NCBI RefSeq assembly: GCF_001753165.1
Contig: NZ_CP017448.1
Coordinates: 2,002,462-2,066,461, forward strand
Reading direction: 5' to 3'
DNA: 64,000 nucleotides
Source: Acidihalobacter aeolianus
Lineage (GTDB): Bacteria > Pseudomonadota > Gammaproteobacteria > DSM-5130 > Acidihalobacteraceae
Made by a program: the position numbers and the translations under genes
In this document: positions 11,069 to 53,475 of the stretch, piece after piece
Numbering within the stretch: the first letter of the stretch is position 1
Layout of the letters: every line of letters starts with the position of its first letter
The notes under the pieces: generated by a model
The model's database searches: none
The model's input: the letters and a program-made list of their open reading frames with translations, nothing else
What the model was told of the DNA's origin: nothing

Positions 11069-11947
11069 ATGACGACCATCGGACTCACCACAGACACGGA
11101 GCAGGCTTACCGCACGTGTCTCGATATCGCATCGCGGCACTACGAAAACTTCCCCGTCGCCTCCTGGCTGCTGCCAAGCCGACTGCGACGCCCGGTTGCT
11201 GCCATCTACGCTTTCGCACGCACCGCCGACGATCTCGCGGACGAAGGCGATGAAATCGCCGATGCCCGCCTCCATGCGCTGACGCGTATGGGAGAATGCC
11301 TGGATCTGGCAACCGCAGGAAACCCACCCGACGACCCAATCTTCATCGCCCTGGCAGATGCCGTACCTCGCCATAACCTGCCTGTCGACGCCCTGCACGA
11401 TCTGCTTTCCGCCTTCCGTCAGGACGTGGTGAAGTCACGCTACCGGGATTTCGGCGAGGTGATGGATTATTGCCGCCGCTCGGCCAATCCGGTCGGTAGG
11501 CTGATCCTCCATCTCTACGGCCGAAACACACCCGACAATCTAGCCCAATCCGATGCGATCTGCAGTTCGCTCCAGCTTATCAACTTCTATCAGGACATTC
11601 ACAGCGACTACTGCGATCGCGGCCGCATCTATCTGCCGCAGGACGAAATGACGCGTTTCGGCGTCACGGAGGCGGATATCGCCGACCGCAGCAGCACGCC
11701 AGCCCTACGCCGCCTGTTGCAGCACAACTACCAACGGGCCGACCGTTTGCTGCGTGCAGGTGCGCCGCTCGGCGCCCGACTTTCCGGGCGCATCGGCATG
11801 GAGCTGCGCGCCATCGTCGTCGGCGGCGCACGCATCCTCCATCGGCTGCAACATCAGGGAGAAGATCTGTTTTCGCGCCCGCACCTGGATTTCCGCGACA
11901 GGGTTGCCATACTGCGCGGTGCGCTGCTGCCGCCGCGGCGTCGCTGA
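11069..11947 (+). CDS. hpnC: hydroxysqualene synthase HpnC (squalene/phytoene synthase family)
   Basis: In the three-enzyme bacterial squalene route HpnC turns presqualene diphosphate into hydroxysqualene. The first aspartate-rich motif is FARTADDLADEGDE (about 50-62), the second INFYQDIHSDYCDRGR (about 171-186), both Mg-diphosphate binding sites of the family. 292 residues. First of an hpnC-hpnD-hpnE run with tight spacing. The assignment of HpnC versus HpnD rests on order and on HpnD-type features in the next gene. Confidence 0.9.
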   Translation: MTTIGLTTDTEQAYRTCLDIASRHYENFPVASWLLPSRLRRPVAAIYAFARTADDLADEGDEIADARLHALTRMGECLDLATAGNPPDDPIFIALADAVPRHNLPVDALHDLLSAFRQDVVKSRYRDFGEVMDYCRRSANPVGRLILHLYGRNTPDNLAQSDAICSSLQLINFYQDIHSDYCDRGRIYLPQDEMTRFGVTEADIADRSSTPALRRLLQHNYQRADRLLRAGAPLGARLSGRIGMELRAIVVGGARILHRLQHQGEDLFSRPHLDFRDRVAILRGALLPPRRR

Positions 11948-47500: not shown

Positions 47501-47946
47501 TCGGCCTTGCCGGCGCGGGCCGGCTGCGGCACGCGGGCGTCGTCCCAGGCCGCGCCGGCGCGTGCGGCGTCCGGCGCGTAGGTGCGCGCCAGCCAGTAGC
47601 AGACGTGGTGCAGCTCCTTCACCACCTGCAGCGCGTCGTATTGCTTCACCGGGCGCGGGCTGTGCACCGCCTGATTGCCCAGCTTCTGGATCACCCGCGC
47701 CTTCTGGAACACCGCCTCCGGCAGCAGGTTCTGCAGGCTCGGCTCGTGCAGCAGCGCGCCCAGCGAACGGTCGTAAGGCAGGCGCAGCGCCGGATCGTGG
47801 CGATACAGCCAGTGCAGCGCCGCCTCCAGGGTGAAGCGGGCATGGAAACAGGCCGCGCGCGGGTCGCCGAGGATATGCCCCTCCGCCTTCCGCGCAGCCT
47901 CCGCGATGTCGCGGAAGGTCTCGGGCAGGAAGGCGAAGTTGCTCAT
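44548..47946 (-). CDS. hsdR: type I restriction enzyme R subunit
   Basis: Translocase-nuclease of a type I system. Layout in 1132 residues: DUF4145-like helical domain (1-125), coiled coil (about 150-200), nuclease with D252 and ExK (Glu267, Lys269 in VVEAKR), then SF2 helicase with Walker A ATGTGKTRTAI (380-390) and DEAHRS, motif VI region GRGTRLCPN, and a long C-terminal EcoEI-like domain. Complete. It starts with ATG at 47946, but is now about 750 bp downstream of hsdS because REP DNA lies between; the ancestral gap appears to have been three bases. Cutting needs HsdM, which is frameshifted here. Confidence 0.93.
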   Translation of the reverse strand: MSNFAFLPETFRDIAEAARKAEGHILGDPRAACFHARFTLEAALHWLYRHDPALRLPYDRSLGALLHEPSLQNLLPEAVFQKARVIQKLGNQAVHSPRPVKQYDALQVVKELHHVCYWLARTYAPDAARAGAAWDDARVPQPARAGKAEDTVPRERLAELEAQFAAQSEAALKQQQERDALDAELQVLRAKLAEVRAEAEATPDTHDYSEAETREYLIDVDLRRAGWPLDQPRDREYEVTGMPNNQAKGYADYVLWGDDGKPLAVVEAKRTTADPTAGRQQAKLYADCLEQMHGQRPLIFYTNGYETWAWDDAAYPPRKVAGFYKKDELQRLILRRTQRKALDVATVKDVIAGRYYQKRAIGSLFAQFARQRRKALLVMATGTGKTRTAIALVDALQRAGWVKRALFLADRVSLVHQAVNAFKTHLPESSPVNLVTEKDTDGRVYVCTYPTMLNLIDQSDGGTARFGVGHFDLVVIDEAHRSVYQKYGAIFAYFDSLLVGLTATPREEVDRNTYALFELEAGVPTDAYELDTAVRDGFLVPPHVQQVDIRFPREGIDYDALSPEEKAQWESLDWGDDGEPGMLPTSVNATAINNWLFNTDTVDKVLQHLMEHGHTVENGDRLAKTIVFARNHEHAAFIEERFNHHYPHYKGAFARVIDNRAKYPQSLIDDFSQADKAPHIAISVDMLDTGIDVPEVANLVFFKPVYSKIKFWQMIGRGTRLCPNLFGPDEDKQDFRVFDFCFNFDFFRENPQGIEGSSGVALGTRLFRARVKLLGHVQADTDLDPDAALGGSLVDELHGEVAAMNRENFIVRMHLQAVERFQDRTAWVALSEHDRERLQREVAGLPSERETDELESRLFDLTALRMQLALAEGDGRTLETLRQRVVEIAMLLEDKAGIPAVKAQLGYLAALQEPGFWEGLSLAALEDLRLRLRTLVPFLDKQQRRIVYTDFQDEVLGVREEQAVYMPKMTGVQYEKKVREYLRNHLDHLVIKRLRSNQPLTETDLQGLERTLAEIGADEGAALLGDLLKRSEAPSLAWFVRGLVGMDRAAAQAAFARFLNDRSLTPKQIRFVELIIDQLTTRGVMPAAALYEAPFSALDAGGPEAVFAGRENVVDGLFETLKAAHEGLSEAG

Positions 47947-47965
47947 GGCTCAGAGTTCCCCGTTG
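47887..47965. repeat. 79-bp direct repeat, copy A (hsdR start plus end of hsdS)
   Basis: Contains the first codons of the live hsdR and 18 bases that match the 3' end of hsdS (stop codon included). Copy B lies at 48642-48720 with 76 of 79 bases identical; together they bracket 676 bp of REP DNA. Confidence 0.9.
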
Positions 47966-47990
47966 CAAACACGGCCGTAGGTTGGCCGGT

Positions 47991-48337
47991 CCCGTAGGTT
48001 GGGCCGACGAAGGAGGCCCAACGATAACGTCTCAATCCCTCTGCCCCAATGCCGATGGCTTCTGTTCGGGGTGCGGTCATGTTGGGCCTCCGTTGTCGGC
48101 CCAACCTACATTAGGTCGACCCCGTAGGTTGGGCCGCCGCAAGAAGGCCCAACGTCCACACCCACCGCCGCCCAGCCCGCGGACCGAAGGTGTCTTCTGG
48201 GGTATGGTCATGTTGGGCCTCCGCTGTCGGCCCAACCTACATTCTGTCCGTGGCGCGATCATGTTGGGCCTCCGCTGTCGGCCCAACCTACGTTCTTCCG
48301 CGCGGGCGCCGCGATGTCGCGGCAGGTCTCGGGCAGT
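47991..48337. repeat. 347-bp tandem unit 1 of the REP cluster
   Basis: Holds five palindromic REP copies: 47994-48022, 48081-48109, 48124-48153, 48212-48240 and 48263-48291, in both orientations, with fixed spacers. The end of the unit carries a 42-bp fragment of the hsdR 5' region (48295-48336). Just before it, 47977-47987, is a partial REP. Confidence 0.92.
48295..48336. repeat. 42-bp partial copy C of the hsdR 5' region
   Basis: Matches the left 42 bases of copy B with one substitution (GGCAGG for GGAAGG), at the junction of the two tandem units. It shows that the amplified unit contained host DNA. Confidence 0.9.
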
Positions 48338-48684
48338 CCCGTAGGTTGGGCCGACGAAGGAGGCCCAACGATAACGTCTCACTCCCTCTGCCCCAATGCC
48401 GATGGCTTCTGTTCGGGGTGCGGTCATGTTGGGCCTCCGTTGTCGGCCCAACCTACATTAGGTCGACCCCGTAGGTTGGGCCGCCGCAAGAAGGCCCAAC
48501 GTCCACACCCGCCGCCGCCCAGCCCGCGGACCGAAGGTGTCTTCTGGGGTATGGTCATGTTGGGCCTCCGCTGTCGGCCCAACCTACATTCTGTCCGTGG
48601 CGCGGTCATGTTGGGCCTCCGTTGTCGGCCCAACCTACATTCTTCCGCGCGGGCGCCGCGATGTCGCGGAAGGTCTCGGGCAGG
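48338..48684. repeat. 347-bp tandem unit 2 of the REP cluster
   Basis: Second copy of the unit, offset by exactly 347 bp with only a few substitutions (for example CACTCCC for CAATCCC). REPs at 48341-48369, 48428-48456, 48471-48500, 48559-48587 and 48610-48638. It runs into the 79-bp repeat copy B. The whole 740-bp region between hsdR and hsdS contains no gene beyond the decoy ORF at 48606-48701. Confidence 0.92.
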
Positions 48685-48701
48685 AAGGCGAAGTTGCTCA
48701 T
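48606..48701 (-). pseudogene. decoy 31-codon hsdR start next to hsdS
   Basis: Begins ATG three bases after the hsdS stop, reads the first 15 residues of HsdR (MSNFAFLPETFRDIA), then runs into REP sequence (APARKNVGWADNGGPT) and stops. It lies where hsdR began before the REP DNA entered, so ribosomes finishing hsdS should initiate here. Confidence 0.8.
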
Positions 48702-48720
48702 GGCTCAGAGTTCCCCGTTG
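48642..48720. repeat. 79-bp direct repeat, copy B (hsdS end plus hsdR start)
   Basis: The copy joined to the functional hsdS 3' end. Three mismatches with copy A, all in a five-base patch (GGGCG versus AGCCT). Confidence 0.9.
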
Positions 48721-49889
48721 AAGGCTCGGGATTGCAGCGAGGCGAAAAGGGTGTCGAGTTCGGCCAGGTGGGCGCGCAGGCGGGTTTTCTGGCGTTCGAT
48801 GGATTCGACGATGGTGGCGAAGCGGTGTTGGATATCTGCTGATGGCAACGGCACTGGGATTCCGCGGATGTCTTTGAGAGCTACAAATTTCTGCGTCCCA
48901 CCCCGATTCGTCTTGGCAGTTATGTGGTCAAAATAATGGGAACAAAGAAGGTGAAGAATATAACGCCGATCTGGCGAACCGCTCAGGATCTTGATAAGTG
49001 CCACATTCTTGATGGCAAAGTCAGGCTCTTGCTCTACCAATACGGGATTGCCGATAGTCCCAATCATCGGCATGACCAAATCCCCAACGTCAACTTTTGA
49101 CCTCTTGTTTATATGCTCAAAGTCCCCATCACTAATCATATTCGCACCTGCGTAGTCGATCTCTCCATCTTTAAAGTTTTTCGACGTTAGCAGCGGATGT
49201 CCGTATTCAACGTATTTTGGTGAGTCATGGGTACCATCTCTCACGTCACAAACGTCACCAAGTTTCTTTTGCTCCCACCCCTTCGGATTCCTCACAGGAT
49301 CGCCGAACAGGTCGAGGAAGGTGGATTGCAGCAGGGTGTCGAGCTGGGCGAGGGACTCGCGGCGCTTGGCCCGCAAGGCGTCCGCCGCATCCAGAATCGC
49401 CGCAATCCGCTTCTGCTCGGCGAGGGGTGGGAGGGGGATCTCGATTTTTCCCAGGTTTTTACGAGATATTCGCTGGCGCGTCGTTCCGGTTACGTGTTTT
49501 TCAATCCCACGACGTCCTACAGGAGAATTAATAGCATGCATCAAGTAGCGATTGGCGACCTTCTCTGAATTTGGCCGAATGATGCAAACGTCAACCACGG
49601 TCACACACGGTTTGGGATCTCCAGGGAAAATACAACTTCGCCCAAGAGGATCAGGCATTCGCGCTACAAGTATGTCGCCCGTTTCGAGGTAGGTGCATCT
49701 CAGTTGGCTTGCCTTCTCCGAGGATAGAAATCTCGTTGATTTGTTTATCCAATAACCATCTCCGATATCGGCTAACTGGGTTAGGCGAACATCTCCGTTA
49801 GGGTCTTGATCCTTCGATTCAATCCAGTCGCCATCAGTAAAAATCTCAGCGTCTTTTAATATCCGCGAGAGCGGTACAACGGCTCTCAT
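48705..49889 (-). CDS. hsdS: type I restriction-modification specificity subunit S
   Basis: 394 residues, two target-recognition domains (about 1-155 and 212-355), each followed by a conserved helix ([20 protein letters not shown] and the equivalent near the C-terminus) that acts as a spacer between half-sites. The ATG at 49889 overlaps the stop of hsdM by 4 bases (ATGA); an open frame extending further upstream reads hsdM out of frame and is not real. TRD sequences cannot be matched to a target by eye. Its stop is now followed by the REP cluster. Confidence 0.92.
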
Positions 49890-51384
49890 CCTAAAAGACC
49901 CTCCAACTCCTTCCGCCCCTCCGCAATCTCCGCCTCCAGCTTCGCCAGCCGCGCCAGAATCACCTGCGGCGGGTCGTATTCGACGGCTTCGTATTCGACT
50001 TCCTTGTAGCGGTTGATGGAGAGGTCGTAGTCGTTGGCGGCAATCTCGGCCTTGGGCACGAGGAAGCTCTGCGCGGTGCGCGGGCGGTCGGCCTCGGCTT
50101 CCCGGTTCCGCCAGCGGGCGAGGATGTCGGGCAGGTCGCTCCTGTCCGGCTGCGGGGTGCGCTTGTCGTCCAATGAAAAGCCGTCGGCGCGCATGTCGTA
50201 GAACCAGACGTGGTCGGTGCCGCCGGAGTCGGTCTTGGTGAACAGCAGGATGGCGGTGCTGACGCCGGCGTAGGGCTTGAACACGCCGGAGGGCATGGAG
50301 ACGATGGCGTCGAGCTTCTGGTCCTCGACCAAGAGCTTGCGCAGGGTCTTGTGTGCGGTGCTGGAGCCGAACAGTACGCCGTCGGGCACGATGACGGCGG
50401 CGCGGCCGCCGCTTTGCAGCAGGCGCAGGAACAGGGCGAGGAACAGCAGCTCGGTCTTCTTGGTCTTGACGATGCGCTGCAGGTCCTTGGCGGTGGATTC
50501 GTAATCCAGGCTGCCGGCGAAGGGCGGATTGGCGAGGATCAGCGAGTATATTTGCCGGCATCGTCGCCGGTGGAGCCGCTGGCGCCTTCGGCCAGGGAGT
50601 CGCGGTAGCGGATGTCGGGGTTTTCGACGCCGTGCAGCAGCATGTTCATGCTGCCGATGCGCAGCATGGTGCTGTCGAAATCGTAGCCGTGGAAGGTGTG
50701 GTCGTTGAAGCGGCGGCGGGCGGCCTCGTCGCGGTAGATGGCGTCGCCGTGGTGCGCGCGCAGGTATTCGGAGGCGGCGACGAGAAAGCCGGCGGTGCCG
50801 CAGGCCGGGTCGCAGATCTGGTCGCGCGGGGTGGGCGCGGTCATCTCGACCATCAGCTTGATGATGTGGCGCGGGGTGCGGAACTGGCCGTTCTGCCCGG
50901 CGCTGGCGATCTTGCCGAGCATGTATTCGTAAAGATCGCCCTTGGTGTCGGCGTCGGCCATGTCGATGCCGTCGAGCTGGTCGACCACGTTGGCCAGCAC
51001 GCGCGGCGTGGGCATCATGAACAGCGCGTCGCGCATGTGGTGGCTGTAGGTGCTGCCGCCCTCGCCGTCGTCCTCGCCCTTGCCGCCGAGCGTCTTGATG
51101 AAGGGAAAGACTTCATCGCGCACGGTGGCGAACATCTGCTCCGGGGCGGTGTCCTTGAAGCGCGACCAGCGCAGGGCGTCCTGGCCGGGCGCAAAAATCG
51201 GCTCGTCGATGGGCTGCCCCGTGCGCGCGGCCTGGCGCTCCTTGCGCGTCTGCAGCTCGTCGAGACGCTTGATGAACAGCAGATAGGTAAGCTGCTCGAT
51301 GACGGACAGCGGGTTGGAGATGCCGCCGGACCACATCGTGTCCCAGATGCGGTCGACCTTGGATTTGAGTTCGCCGGTGATCAT
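49886..51384 (-). pseudogene. hsdM: type I DNA methyltransferase subunit M, frameshifted
   Basis: N-terminal half reads from ATG 51384 to a stop at 50539 (281 residues): HsdM N-domain then SAM motif [12 protein letters not shown]. The C-terminal half continues in another frame from about 50545 to 49886: [15 protein letters not shown] (catalytic NPPF), PDGVLFGSS and so on. The shift is in AAATATACTCGCTGATC, between Lys-Tyr-Thr and Leu-Ile-Leu-Ala-Asn-Pro-Pro-Phe; the total of 1499 bases is one short of, or two more than, a multiple of three. As read, the first product lacks the NPPF loop and cannot methylate; the second has no proper start (first ATG at 50389). A sequence error is the alternative. 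Confidence 0.88.
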
Positions 51385-51437
51385 GCGCGTCCTTGGGATG
51401 GATCAAACCATGGCGATGTTAGCGCATCCCATGGATC

Positions 51438-51557
51438 GTAGGTTGGGCCGCCGAAGAAGGCCCAACGACCACGCCTAACCGCATCCAGCCATCCCGGTGG
51501 CGGGTGCATCTGGCGTGGCACGTGTATTGTTGGGCCTCCGGTGTCGGCCCAACCTAC
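51438..51557. repeat. 120-bp paired REP element (BIME), copy 1
   Basis: Two REPs in inverted orientation (51438-51466 and 51529-51557) with a 62-bp spacer. The same element recurs at 52394-52513 with about four differences in 120 bases. Lies between hsdM and hepT. Confidence 0.9.
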
Positions 51558-51575
51558 ATCTGATGGGCCCTGAGG

Positions 51576-51947
51576 TTATCGGCTCTCGGCGGCTTCGACG
51601 AGGAGGGTCTTTATCGTTGGATACAAATCGGGCAAATCCGATTGGATGGCCTTCCACAGCAAACCATAGTCCACGGTGAAATATCCATGCGTCACGCGGT
51701 TGCGTAGGGCGACGATGGCTGGCCATTCGACCTCGGGATGGGCATCGGCAAACGCATGATGGTAACGCTCGATGTTGCGTGCGGCCTCGCCCAAAATCTC
51801 GAAATTGCGCACAACCGCATCCTGGGTTTTGCCGTCGGCAAGAAACGCAACCTCGTCCAAGTCGGCAACGTAAGCATGTACACGCTCTATGGCTTCACGC
51901 ATGTGATCCAGGAAATCCGGCAAGCGTAGCTCGTCGGCCTTGCTCAT
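51576..51947 (-). CDS. hepT: HepT-like ribonuclease toxin (DUF86)
   Basis: 123 residues, all-helical HEPN domain with the Rx4-6H active motif as RNRVTHGY (Arg82, His87) and an upstream ILGEAARN helix. HepT toxins cleave or are silenced by AMPylation from the MntA antitoxin. Its ATG overlaps the mntA stop by 4 bases (ATGA). Intact. Confidence 0.88.
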   Translation of the reverse strand: MSKADELRLPDFLDHMREAIERVHAYVADLDEVAFLADGKTQDAVVRNFEILGEAARNIERYHHAFADAHPEVEWPAIVALRNRVTHGYFTVDYGLLWKAIQSDLPDLYPTIKTLLVEAAESR

Positions 51948-52234
51948 ACGGCCTGGGCCTCGTCGAGCACGCGCTGTCGAAATTTCTCAGGCAGTGCCAT
52001 GGGCGTTAGTACGTCGACCTCGACATCCAACAACTTCTTGAGCTGATACTGGATTCTGGCGATATCCAGCAGCGTCGTTTCACTGGTGGGAGAAACCAGG
52101 ATATCCAGATCGCTTCCTTCCGCATCCTCTCCGCGCAACACCGAGCCGAACACACGCACGTCGGACACGCGATGGCTCAGCGCAATTTCGCGGATTCGAT
52201 CGCGGTGAAGCTGCAGAGCGGTAGAGGGTCGCAT
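51944..52234 (-). CDS. mntA: MntA-like nucleotidyltransferase antitoxin
   Basis: 96 residues, minimal nucleotidyltransferase with GSVLRGEDAEGSDLDILV: Gly-Ser (30-31) and the metal pair Asp42 and Asp44. In this two-gene module MntA AMPylates HepT. Start by ATG at 52234. Flanked on both sides by the duplicated REP element. Confidence 0.88.
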   Translation of the reverse strand: MRPSTALQLHRDRIREIALSHRVSDVRVFGSVLRGEDAEGSDLDILVSPTSETTLLDIARIQYQLKKLLDVEVDVLTPMALPEKFRQRVLDEAQAV

Positions 52235-52349
52235 CGGCGATGCCAGCCTAGGTCGATGGAAACAGCCCCAATAGTAAACTCATCGATACACACCTGCCAT
52301 TCCGCCATGAAAATCAAGCGGCTATCGCAGAGTGTTGCGCTGAAATCAT

Positions 52350-52378
52350 GTTGGGCCTCCGGTGTCGGCCCAAGCTAC
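52350..52378. repeat. REP element between mntA and RAYT
   Basis: Single REP, GTTGGGCC...GGCCCAAGCTAC, 15 bp before BIME copy 2; one substitution breaks the outer arm (CAAGCTAC for CAACCTAC). Confidence 0.85.
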
Positions 52379-52393
52379 ATTCGGTCTACCCCC

Positions 52394-52513
52394 GTAGGTT
52401 GGGCCGCCGAAGAAGGCCCAACGATCACGCCTAACCGCATCCAGCCATCCCGGTGGCGGGTGCATCTGGCGTGGCGCGTGTGATGTTGGGCCTCCGGTGT
52501 CGGCCCAACCTAC
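52394..52513. repeat. 120-bp paired REP element (BIME), copy 2
   Basis: REPs at 52394-52422 and 52485-52513 with the same 62-bp spacer (CCAGCCATCCCGGTGGCGGG) as copy 1. The two copies bracket hepT-mntA. The gap from mntA to the transposase, 52235-52597, holds only REPs. Confidence 0.9.
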
Positions 52514-52526
52514 ATTGGACGATGCC

Positions 52527-52555
52527 GTAGGTTGGGCCGCCGAAGAAGGCCCAAC
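52527..52555. repeat. REP element upstream of BIME-RAYT junction
   Basis: REP GTAGGTTGGGCC...GGCCCAAC, 13 bp after BIME copy 2 and 42 bp from the transposase stop. Confidence 0.88.
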
Positions 52556-52597
52556 GTGCCCCGCTTCGCAGGACACAAACTCCACGAATGCTAACGC

Positions 52598-53134
52598 TCA
52601 TCTCGCGGGCTCGCCGTAATGGCCATCGGGATCACCGCCGCCGCCCCAGTCCTCGTGCAACAGGCCCTGTTGCACGAATCGATGAAAGGACGAATACGGC
52701 CAATCCGCCGCTGTGTTCGCATGACCATGTTTCACCGGATTGAAGTGGATGTAATCCACATGCCGCGCAAAATCGTCTTCGTCGCGGATCAGATGCTCCC
52801 AGAAGCGGCGTTGCCAGATGCCGCGTTCGCGTTTGTTGACACGGCTCGGCGTCAGCCCCGGGTCACACCGGGGAAGCCGGCGTGAAAATTCGCCCTTGAT
52901 GCGATTCCAGCGCATCGAATAATCCGGGTCCTCGGGTGGCAGCGTCCAGATCGCGTGCATGTGTTCGGGCAACACCACCCACGCGACGATCTCGAACGGA
53001 TGTGCCCACCGCACCCCGCGAACGGCCTCGCGCAACACGTCCACGTGGTCGACGAGCAACGTTTCCCTGCGCGAAGCCAGATTCACCGTGAAGAAATACG
53101 TCCCGCCCGGAATCAGCGCCCTCCGGTATCGCAT
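52598..53134 (-). CDS. REP-associated tyrosine transposase (RAYT)
   Basis: 178-residue IS200-like Y1 transposase family member: HUH pair HMH (His58, His60) in LPEHMHAIW and the nucleophile tyrosine Tyr128 in DYIHFNPVKHG. Domesticated members bind and cut the hairpins of REP elements. ATG at 53134 gives the typical RAYT beginning MRYRRALIPGG; an upstream ATG adds six residues. REPs lie on both sides. Appears intact. Confidence 0.92.
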   Translation of the reverse strand: MRYRRALIPGGTYFFTVNLASRRETLLVDHVDVLREAVRGVRWAHPFEIVAWVVLPEHMHAIWTLPPEDPDYSMRWNRIKGEFSRRLPRCDPGLTPSRVNKRERGIWQRRFWEHLIRDEDDFARHVDYIHFNPVKHGHANTAADWPYSSFHRFVQQGLLHEDWGGGGDPDGHYGEPAR

Positions 53135-53180
53135 ACGCCCCCCAGCCGCCATTCAACCCCGACCGTAGACCGCAGACTGA

Positions 53181-53475
53181 ACCGCCGCAAGGAGGCCCAA
53201 CATCGACGTCCAGCAACCGTAGCAAAACCATAGGCTGGGCCGACGCCAAGGAGGTCCAACATCAAAACCACTACCCCGCCACCCCAGGCGCGGATGCATC
53301 ACGTCGGGAAACGGTCATGTCGGGCCTCCAGTGTCGGCCCAGCCTACATTAGGGTGATCCCGTAGGTTGGGCCGACGAAGGAGGCCCAACAATCAACCCC
53401 ATCCCAACCGCACCGATGCCGTGTACCTGTATCCAGGCACGGTGGCGTTGGGCCTCCGATGTCGGCCCAACCTAC
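53181..53475. repeat. REP cluster between RAYT and the cupin gene
   Basis: Four or five REPs: degenerate 53181-53201 and 53231-53260, then 53319-53347, 53362-53390 and 53447-53475. Sequence divergence rises toward the middle of the gap, for example GTCGGGCC and GGTCCAAC. No gene in 53135-53483. Confidence 0.88.

Follow-up and report, generated by a model that had tools for sequence, protein, structure and literature searches.

Probable insertion of an mntA-hepT toxin-antitoxin cassette into a small REPIN array, with duplication of the target

In a 64-kb stretch of the Acidihalobacter aeolianus genome, a mntA-hepT toxin-antitoxin pair lies between two nearly identical pairs of REPs. Throughout this text, the whole stretch that was analyzed is called the window. 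We consider it probable (about 0.6) that the pair is a self-contained cassette that entered a small REPIN array and duplicated the target sequence. The array would have had a type I restriction-modification operon on one side and, on the other, the RAYT (REP-associated tyrosine transposase) gene belonging to those REPs, and the insertion would have duplicated the local target, leaving the cassette framed by copies of its landing sequence. The RAYT and the REPs would have been the address of the cassette, not its vehicle. What had been suspected to be a REP-borne mobile unit thus becomes an insertion into a REP array. This reading draws on the anatomy of the place, the confinement of its REPs, two half-empty sites in congeners, the recurrent framing of related modules by copies of target sequence, and the signature motifs of the two proteins.

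Results

Anatomy of the mntA-hepT module and its bracket

The features considered are as follows, with coordinates of the window.

47887..47965 (left copy) and 48642-48720 (right copy): 79-base direct repeat framing array A, made of the start of hsdR and the end of hsdS
47994..48638, no strand: array A, ten REPs between hsdS and hsdR
49892..51384, minus strand: hsdM, type I restriction-modification gene adjoining B1, with a frameshift near 50545
51437..51559, no strand: REPIN B1 (REP 51438-51466, plus; 62-base spacer; REP 51529-51557, minus)
51576..51947, minus strand: hepT, HEPN RNase-type toxin gene (123 aa; PF01934, E 2e-26)
51944..52234, minus strand: mntA, minimal nucleotidyltransferase antitoxin gene (96 aa; PF01909, E 3e-13)
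52348..52380 (unit 52350-52378), minus strand: orphan REP between mntA and B2
52393..52515, no strand: REPIN B2 (REP 52394-52422, plus; 62-base spacer; REP 52485-52513, minus)
52527..52555, plus strand: REP, 13 bases from B2
52598..53152, minus strand: RAYT gene, outside the bracket (NF047646)
53319..53475: three REPs (53319-53347, minus; 53362-53390, plus; 53447-53475, minus)

On the minus strand, in the direction of transcription, the order is RAYT, REP, B2, orphan REP, mntA, hepT, B1, hsdM, hsdS, array A, and hsdR. A previous reading made from the letters of this DNA without database searches (the sequence-only reading) had described an intact hepT-mntA pair framed by REP pairs, and both genes were indeed found to be open between B1 and B2, with an overlap of 4 bases. 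The orphan REP, the REP at 52527-52555, the RAYT, the REPs at 53319-53475, and array A go beyond what that reading had described.

HepT contains the RX4HXY motif at residue 82 (RNRVTHGY), and MntA contains the GSX10DXD motif at residue 30 (GS-X10-DLD), which are the signature motifs of HepT/MntA pairs (PMC7641770). The pair is similar to the type VII HepT/MntA system of S. oneidensis (SO_3166/SO_3165; PMC7641770) in the adjacency of PF01934 and PF01909, the upstream position of the MNT gene, and the presence of both motifs, but differs in that HepT (43 bits) and MntA (36.2 bits) do not reach the NCBIfam equivalog cut-off of 60 bits, so that it is filed only as a Pfam-level relative with signature motifs. 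Once resident, the pair is predicted to work as a HepT/MntA module, in which MntA would adenylylate HepT and block the HepT RNase. The closest relatives of HepT, with 65-67% identity, were found in Sideroxydans/Gallionellaceae. The G+C content of the module was 56-58%, compared with 64% in the window.

B1 and B2, each an inverted pair of GTAG-tagged REPs, aligned over 123 bp with 96.7% identity and 4 differences, in agreement with the earlier count of about four differences and a shared 62-base spacer, and B2 matched B1 at E 5e-52 in a BLASTN search of its own genome. These direct repeats are spaced 956 bp apart. B1 begins 16 bases past the hepT stop codon and folds into a single long hairpin (z -7.1). 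The proposal that one REP pair copied the other or that both arrived together was borne out to the extent that B1 and B2 share a recent common copy.

Confinement of the REPs to one cluster

All 19 REP units of the 64-kb window were located at 47994-53475. In the 3.53-Mb genome, 17 matches to the REP pattern were detected, all at C1:2050456-2055935 (5.5 kb), with none for a reversed-pattern control, and BLASTN with one REP pair yielded 16 matches, all inside the same 5.5-kb cluster. Thus, neither the whole-genome pattern search nor BLASTN detected a dispersed, high-copy population of this REP. The RAYT scored 198.6 bits against NF047646 (cut-off 80) and was the sole RAYT match in the genome. 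The locus shares GTAG-tagged palindromes, inverted pairs, and an adjoining RAYT with described REPIN-RAYT systems (PMC8049555) but differs in having no dispersed population, all of its REPs being within 5.5 kb of the RAYT locus; E. coli reportedly has 69 or more REPINs per genome (PMC8049555). It also differs from a composite transposon with REPIN ends, as the RAYT is outside the bracket and the genome has no second copy of the unit.

In the most economical version of the proposed insertion, the starting array would have been hsdM, B1, 15 bases, B2, 13 bases, REP, and RAYT. The cassette would have entered at the inner REP of B1, and duplication of approximately 33 bases on insertion would have left, and would explain, the orphan REP at 52348-52380, which is separated from B2 by a 15-base linker. 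When the cassette and one 33-base copy of the REP were removed from the sequence, regular linkers of 13-15 bases remained, as elsewhere in the cluster. The orphan REP shares 31/33 bases with the inner REP of B1 (51527-51559) and 32/33 with that of B2, a one-base difference in favor of B2 that leaves the 33-base version unproven. In this version, B1 and B2 would resemble each other as neighbors in a tandem array. REPIN amplification in one locality has been attributed to host replication and not to RAYT (PMC8049555), and likeness of neighboring REPINs is expected on that basis. In a variant, the whole 123-base REPIN would have been duplicated; the REPs would be the target in both versions. We infer the order of these events, and as their route illegitimate recombination with target duplication.

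Likeness of neighbors is also seen in array A, which contains two near-identical 300-base copies 347 bases apart with 98% identity, and residues 1-29 of hsdR match again at 48701-48612. This ten-REP array, with its 347-base tandem duplication, is framed by the 79-base repeat, in which the end of hsdS and the start of hsdR are duplicated (47887-48720), and looks like another insertion with target duplication. In hsdM, two extra bases at 50545 relative to the congener G001 split the gene into two frames, so that the type I system looks broken, unless there is an assembly error at this position.

The same place in relatives

We searched 27 genomes, namely the own genome, two congeners (G001 and G002), two genomes of the same family, and 22 more distant ones, and five of them yielded a BLASTN match to the REP pair. 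In G002, B2, the REP, and the RAYT are kept (97.5% identity over 812 bp) and the adjoining cupin and dehydrogenase genes are the same, while other genes replace hsd, hepT-mntA is absent from the place, and HepT has no match. In G001, hsdRSM with approximately 88-90% identity precedes one REP pair, which has 74% identity to B1, and a truncated cupin gene comes next; hepT-mntA is absent from this place too, the only HepT match is elsewhere in the genome with 52% identity, and no RAYT was found anywhere in the genome. G001 (hsdM-REP pair) and G002 (REP pair-REP-RAYT) are the two halves of the expected empty site. The exact empty site was present in none of the genomes examined, each congener having one half. 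A hepT-mntA pair at this place without flanking repeats, which the sequence-only reading had named as evidence against its view, was not found in the two congeners because neither has the pair there. G002 also does not have the 189 bp to the right of the RAYT (opposite 53189-53378 of the window), which were lost exactly between two 14-base REP repeats. This precise loss indicates that REP half-sites have recombined here.

These comparisons bear on an alternative in which the RAYT copied B2 and placed B1 between hsdM and a resident hepT-mntA, the bracket being a by-product of REPIN spread. In keeping with it, the homology of B1 and B2 stops at the REPIN ends, the RAYT adjoins, the REPs occupy gaps in a co-directional string of genes, RAYTs are considered to duplicate REPINs (PMC8049555), and more changes of its own are found in B1 than in B2 when G002 is used as the outgroup. 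However, copying by the RAYT leaves the orphan REP and the 15-base linker unexplained; a REP pair already follows hsdM in G001, so the array at that edge is probably old; and no REP spread is seen elsewhere in the genome, a confinement to the cluster that makes RAYT-driven copying look rare here. We regard this alternative as unlikely.

Repeats framing mntA-hepT modules elsewhere

Insertion of a cassette with target duplication can be compared with what surrounds related modules. Relatives of HepT were gathered from 48 loci in named genomes, from 27 relatives, from 15 of 369 genomes of the class (E 1e-22), and from 33 of 399 genomes of one burkholderial family (E 1e-30). Removal of duplicate records left 99 unique modules, and 96, including that of the window, had enough flanking sequence. 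A module was counted as framed when a repeat of at least 60 bp with at least 80% identity had its right copy at most 120 bases from the hepT stop codon and its left copy at most 400 bases from mntA. The controls were 539 places in these loci that are occupied by other genes or gene pairs.

Direct repeats framed six of the 96 modules: those of the window, L056, L057, L062, L163, and L188. With the window left out, 5 of 95 modules, representing four events, were framed by repeats of 115-252 bp, compared with 0 of 539 controls (Fisher p 7e-5, a value weakened by partial knowledge of the five cases at the time when the criterion was set and by the use of simple longest-ORF calls for the control boundaries). 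When L056 and L057 were counted as one event, 4 of 94 were framed (p 5e-4). The framed modules had their repeats 6-14 bases after the hepT stop codon and 34-108 bases before mntA. At the thresholds used, the tight repeat was absent in 90 of the 95 modules. The gene-bounded controls superseded an earlier null of random places, in which 7 of 432 were framed, all from two repeat-rich loci and none within 60 bases of the end. A first count of 9/95 had included duplicate records and the loose cases L121, L122, L130, and L141, which the tight count excludes. Also outside the tight count are L061, with its left copy 3.5 kb away, and the decayed cases L066 (51 bp, 78%) and L199 (248 bp, 70%).

The framing repeat is the 3′ end of mutL, including the stop codon, in L056 and L057, and the 3′ end of hsdS in L062. 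The repeat of L163 includes a REP-like palindrome of another family. In L188, the repeat is longer and part of it recurs nearby, so that it may be a dispersed repeat. In the window, the repeat is the local REPIN. As the framing repeats vary with the locus (mutL end, hsdS end, or other local repeats), they belong to the target rather than the module. One copy of the hsdS end follows hepT in L061 and another is located 3.5 kb upstream; a third, short copy and other genes lie between these two.

The sequence-only reading had suggested that the repeats could let the module move by homologous exchange, as a mobile unit in which a transposase-derived repeat carries the toxin-antitoxin pair. In principle, 123-bp direct repeats at a spacing of 956 bp could lead to deletion or amplification of the module; the mobile REP-borne unit is unsupported. 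No RAYT was found in the 56 other HepT loci, the repeats framing modules elsewhere are local sequence and not this REP, and a module between the same repeats, which that reading had proposed to look for, was found at no other module locus. In 98 loci (1.18 Mb), there was one weak RAYT-like match with 25% identity, and the REP core strings occurred at one site each in 2 of the 56 loci. REP-borne mobility of such modules was rejected on these grounds.

A more specific form, in which REPIN-module-REPIN moves by homologous exchange, for example as a one-REPIN circle integrating at a resident REPIN, has a small chance of being correct. Direct repeats of 123 bp at 97% identity could recombine, looping out would yield REPIN-REP-RAYT as in G002, and the 189-bp loss in G002 shows REP half-sites recombining; against this, the REPIN is at no other module locus, the REP family is absent from the rest of the genome and offers no other destination, and the orphan REP is unexplained.

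Other carriers were also considered. Travel with the type I restriction-modification operon was rejected because only 6 of the 48 named loci have hsd genes in the vicinity of HepT and because the same operon occurs in G001 unaccompanied by the pair. Carriage by phage was rejected, the single viral-contig match being 21 residues long. HepT relatives were present in 1485 plasmid records, all with less than 60% identity, and no REP match was found in plasmid records.

Tagged inserts behind mutL in Gallionellaceae

The mutL arrays are the more surprising part of our results. The mutL 3′ region was found in 113 of 120 genomes of Gallionellaceae, the family of L056, and an extra copy of the mutL 3′ end was located downstream on the same contig in 10 of the 113; in an eleventh genome (G857), it was on another contig. 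As a control, a search with the miaA 3′ region gave matches in 106 of the 120 genomes, with extra 3′-end copies in 0 of 106 (eight double rows were split alignments); miaA is less conserved than mutL, and short copies are more easily missed in this control. Among 32 distinct mutL ends, there were 13 extra copies in 10 loci. The 13 inserts tagged in this way were MntA-HepT (4), HigBA-like (3), YefM-YoeB (2), Gp49 with a HI1420-type antidote (1), a winged-helix nucleotidyltransferase (1), a GGDEF-EAL protein (1), and a DAHP synthase (1), so that toxin-antitoxin pairs accounted for 10 of the 13. In L246, HigBA-like, MntA-HepT, and YefM-YoeB pairs follow in series, each with a mutL tag after it (116, 31, and 36 bases).

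Among the 22 untagged mutL loci, a toxin-antitoxin domain was found in none of the seven downstream proteins run against Pfam. L254 has MntA-HepT behind mutL with no tag, and in L251, L253, and L258, mutL is followed within 200 bases by miaA or a transporter gene, also with no tag.

The junctions between HigBA and tag in L245 and L246 have the toxin-antitoxin frame ending inside bases common to mutL; these two junctions would fit joining at short identity. Under homology-facilitated illegitimate recombination, the downstream copy would be the original end of the recipient and the upstream copy would derive from the donor. For 4 of the 13 copies, the tag was matched best by the own mutL end, which was nearer to relatives than the tag was in 23 of 30 comparisons (10 copies of at least 80 bases). 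The latter result would fit a decaying tag and does not specifically indicate homology-facilitated illegitimate recombination.

Across L240-L249, toxin-antitoxin pairs and a few other genes lie behind mutL, and a copy of the mutL 3′ end comes after each. A similar serial array was observed behind hsdS in L061:1-3736, where an ATPase gene with its partner, small antitoxin-like genes, and mntA-hepT are accompanied by three copies of the hsdS 3′ end.

That REPs merely gather in the gaps of a variable region, where any gene would come to lie between similar REP pairs, is very unlikely: array A lies between hsdS and hsdR, and the RAYT locus of a sister genus has REP repeats of another family between several genes, but such gathering would account neither for the excess of direct repeats that closely frame related modules at unconnected sites nor for the serial mutL tags.

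Discussion

Insertion of an mntA-hepT cassette into its target, as preferred here for the window, has partial parallels in other systems. Restriction-modification genes reportedly insert with variable target duplications of approximately 100 bp (PMC3874152), and the modules described here are alike in that variable direct repeats of target sequence, of about that length, frame a small addiction-type module. They differ in that the inserts are toxin-antitoxin pairs, the tags end at the stop codon of the upstream gene (mutL or hsdS), and the inserts are stacked serially; in the window, moreover, the target is a REPIN array. At type VI effector loci, arrays have been proposed to be left by homology-facilitated illegitimate recombination (PMC5361080). 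Successive insertions behind a conserved gene, with strings of remnants, are common to those loci and to mutL and hsdS, whereas here whole toxin-antitoxin pairs lie behind housekeeping or hsdS genes and no effector is displaced.

These results bear on the movement of small chromosomal toxin-antitoxin pairs that have no transposase. Tentatively, MntA-HepT, HigBA-like, and YefM-YoeB pairs may form a loose class of mobile, end-tagged cassettes that have no recombinase of their own and stack behind mutL, hsdS, or a REPIN array. Each insertion would leave a variable target copy behind the cassette, and the tags would then provide homology for further exchange, giving rise to integron-like arrays without an integrase. 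The pair in the window would belong to this class, its target being a REPIN array. In the open-access literature, to which our search was confined, no description of toxin-antitoxin cassettes tagged by host gene ends was found. Framing by target copies, recurrent at unrelated sites and serial at mutL, is a sequence signature of insertion; its occurrences in genomes can be counted, and it should be reproducible in competent laboratory bacteria.

Further loci with REP-like palindromes or RAYT genes were observed in the course of this analysis. Two more mntA-hepT modules (L166 and L171) lie between arrays of REP-like palindromes belonging to other GTAG families. At the RAYT locus of the sister genus mentioned above (G004; L114, 3826-14175), a different REP family is interspersed between a transposase gene, a pilin gene, and two large membrane-protein genes. 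In G019, the start of hsdM is present in two 138-base copies (L111:8811-8948 and 11380-11517) with a RAYT and a winged-helix nucleotidyltransferase gene between them, so that hsdM looks interrupted; the contig ends there.
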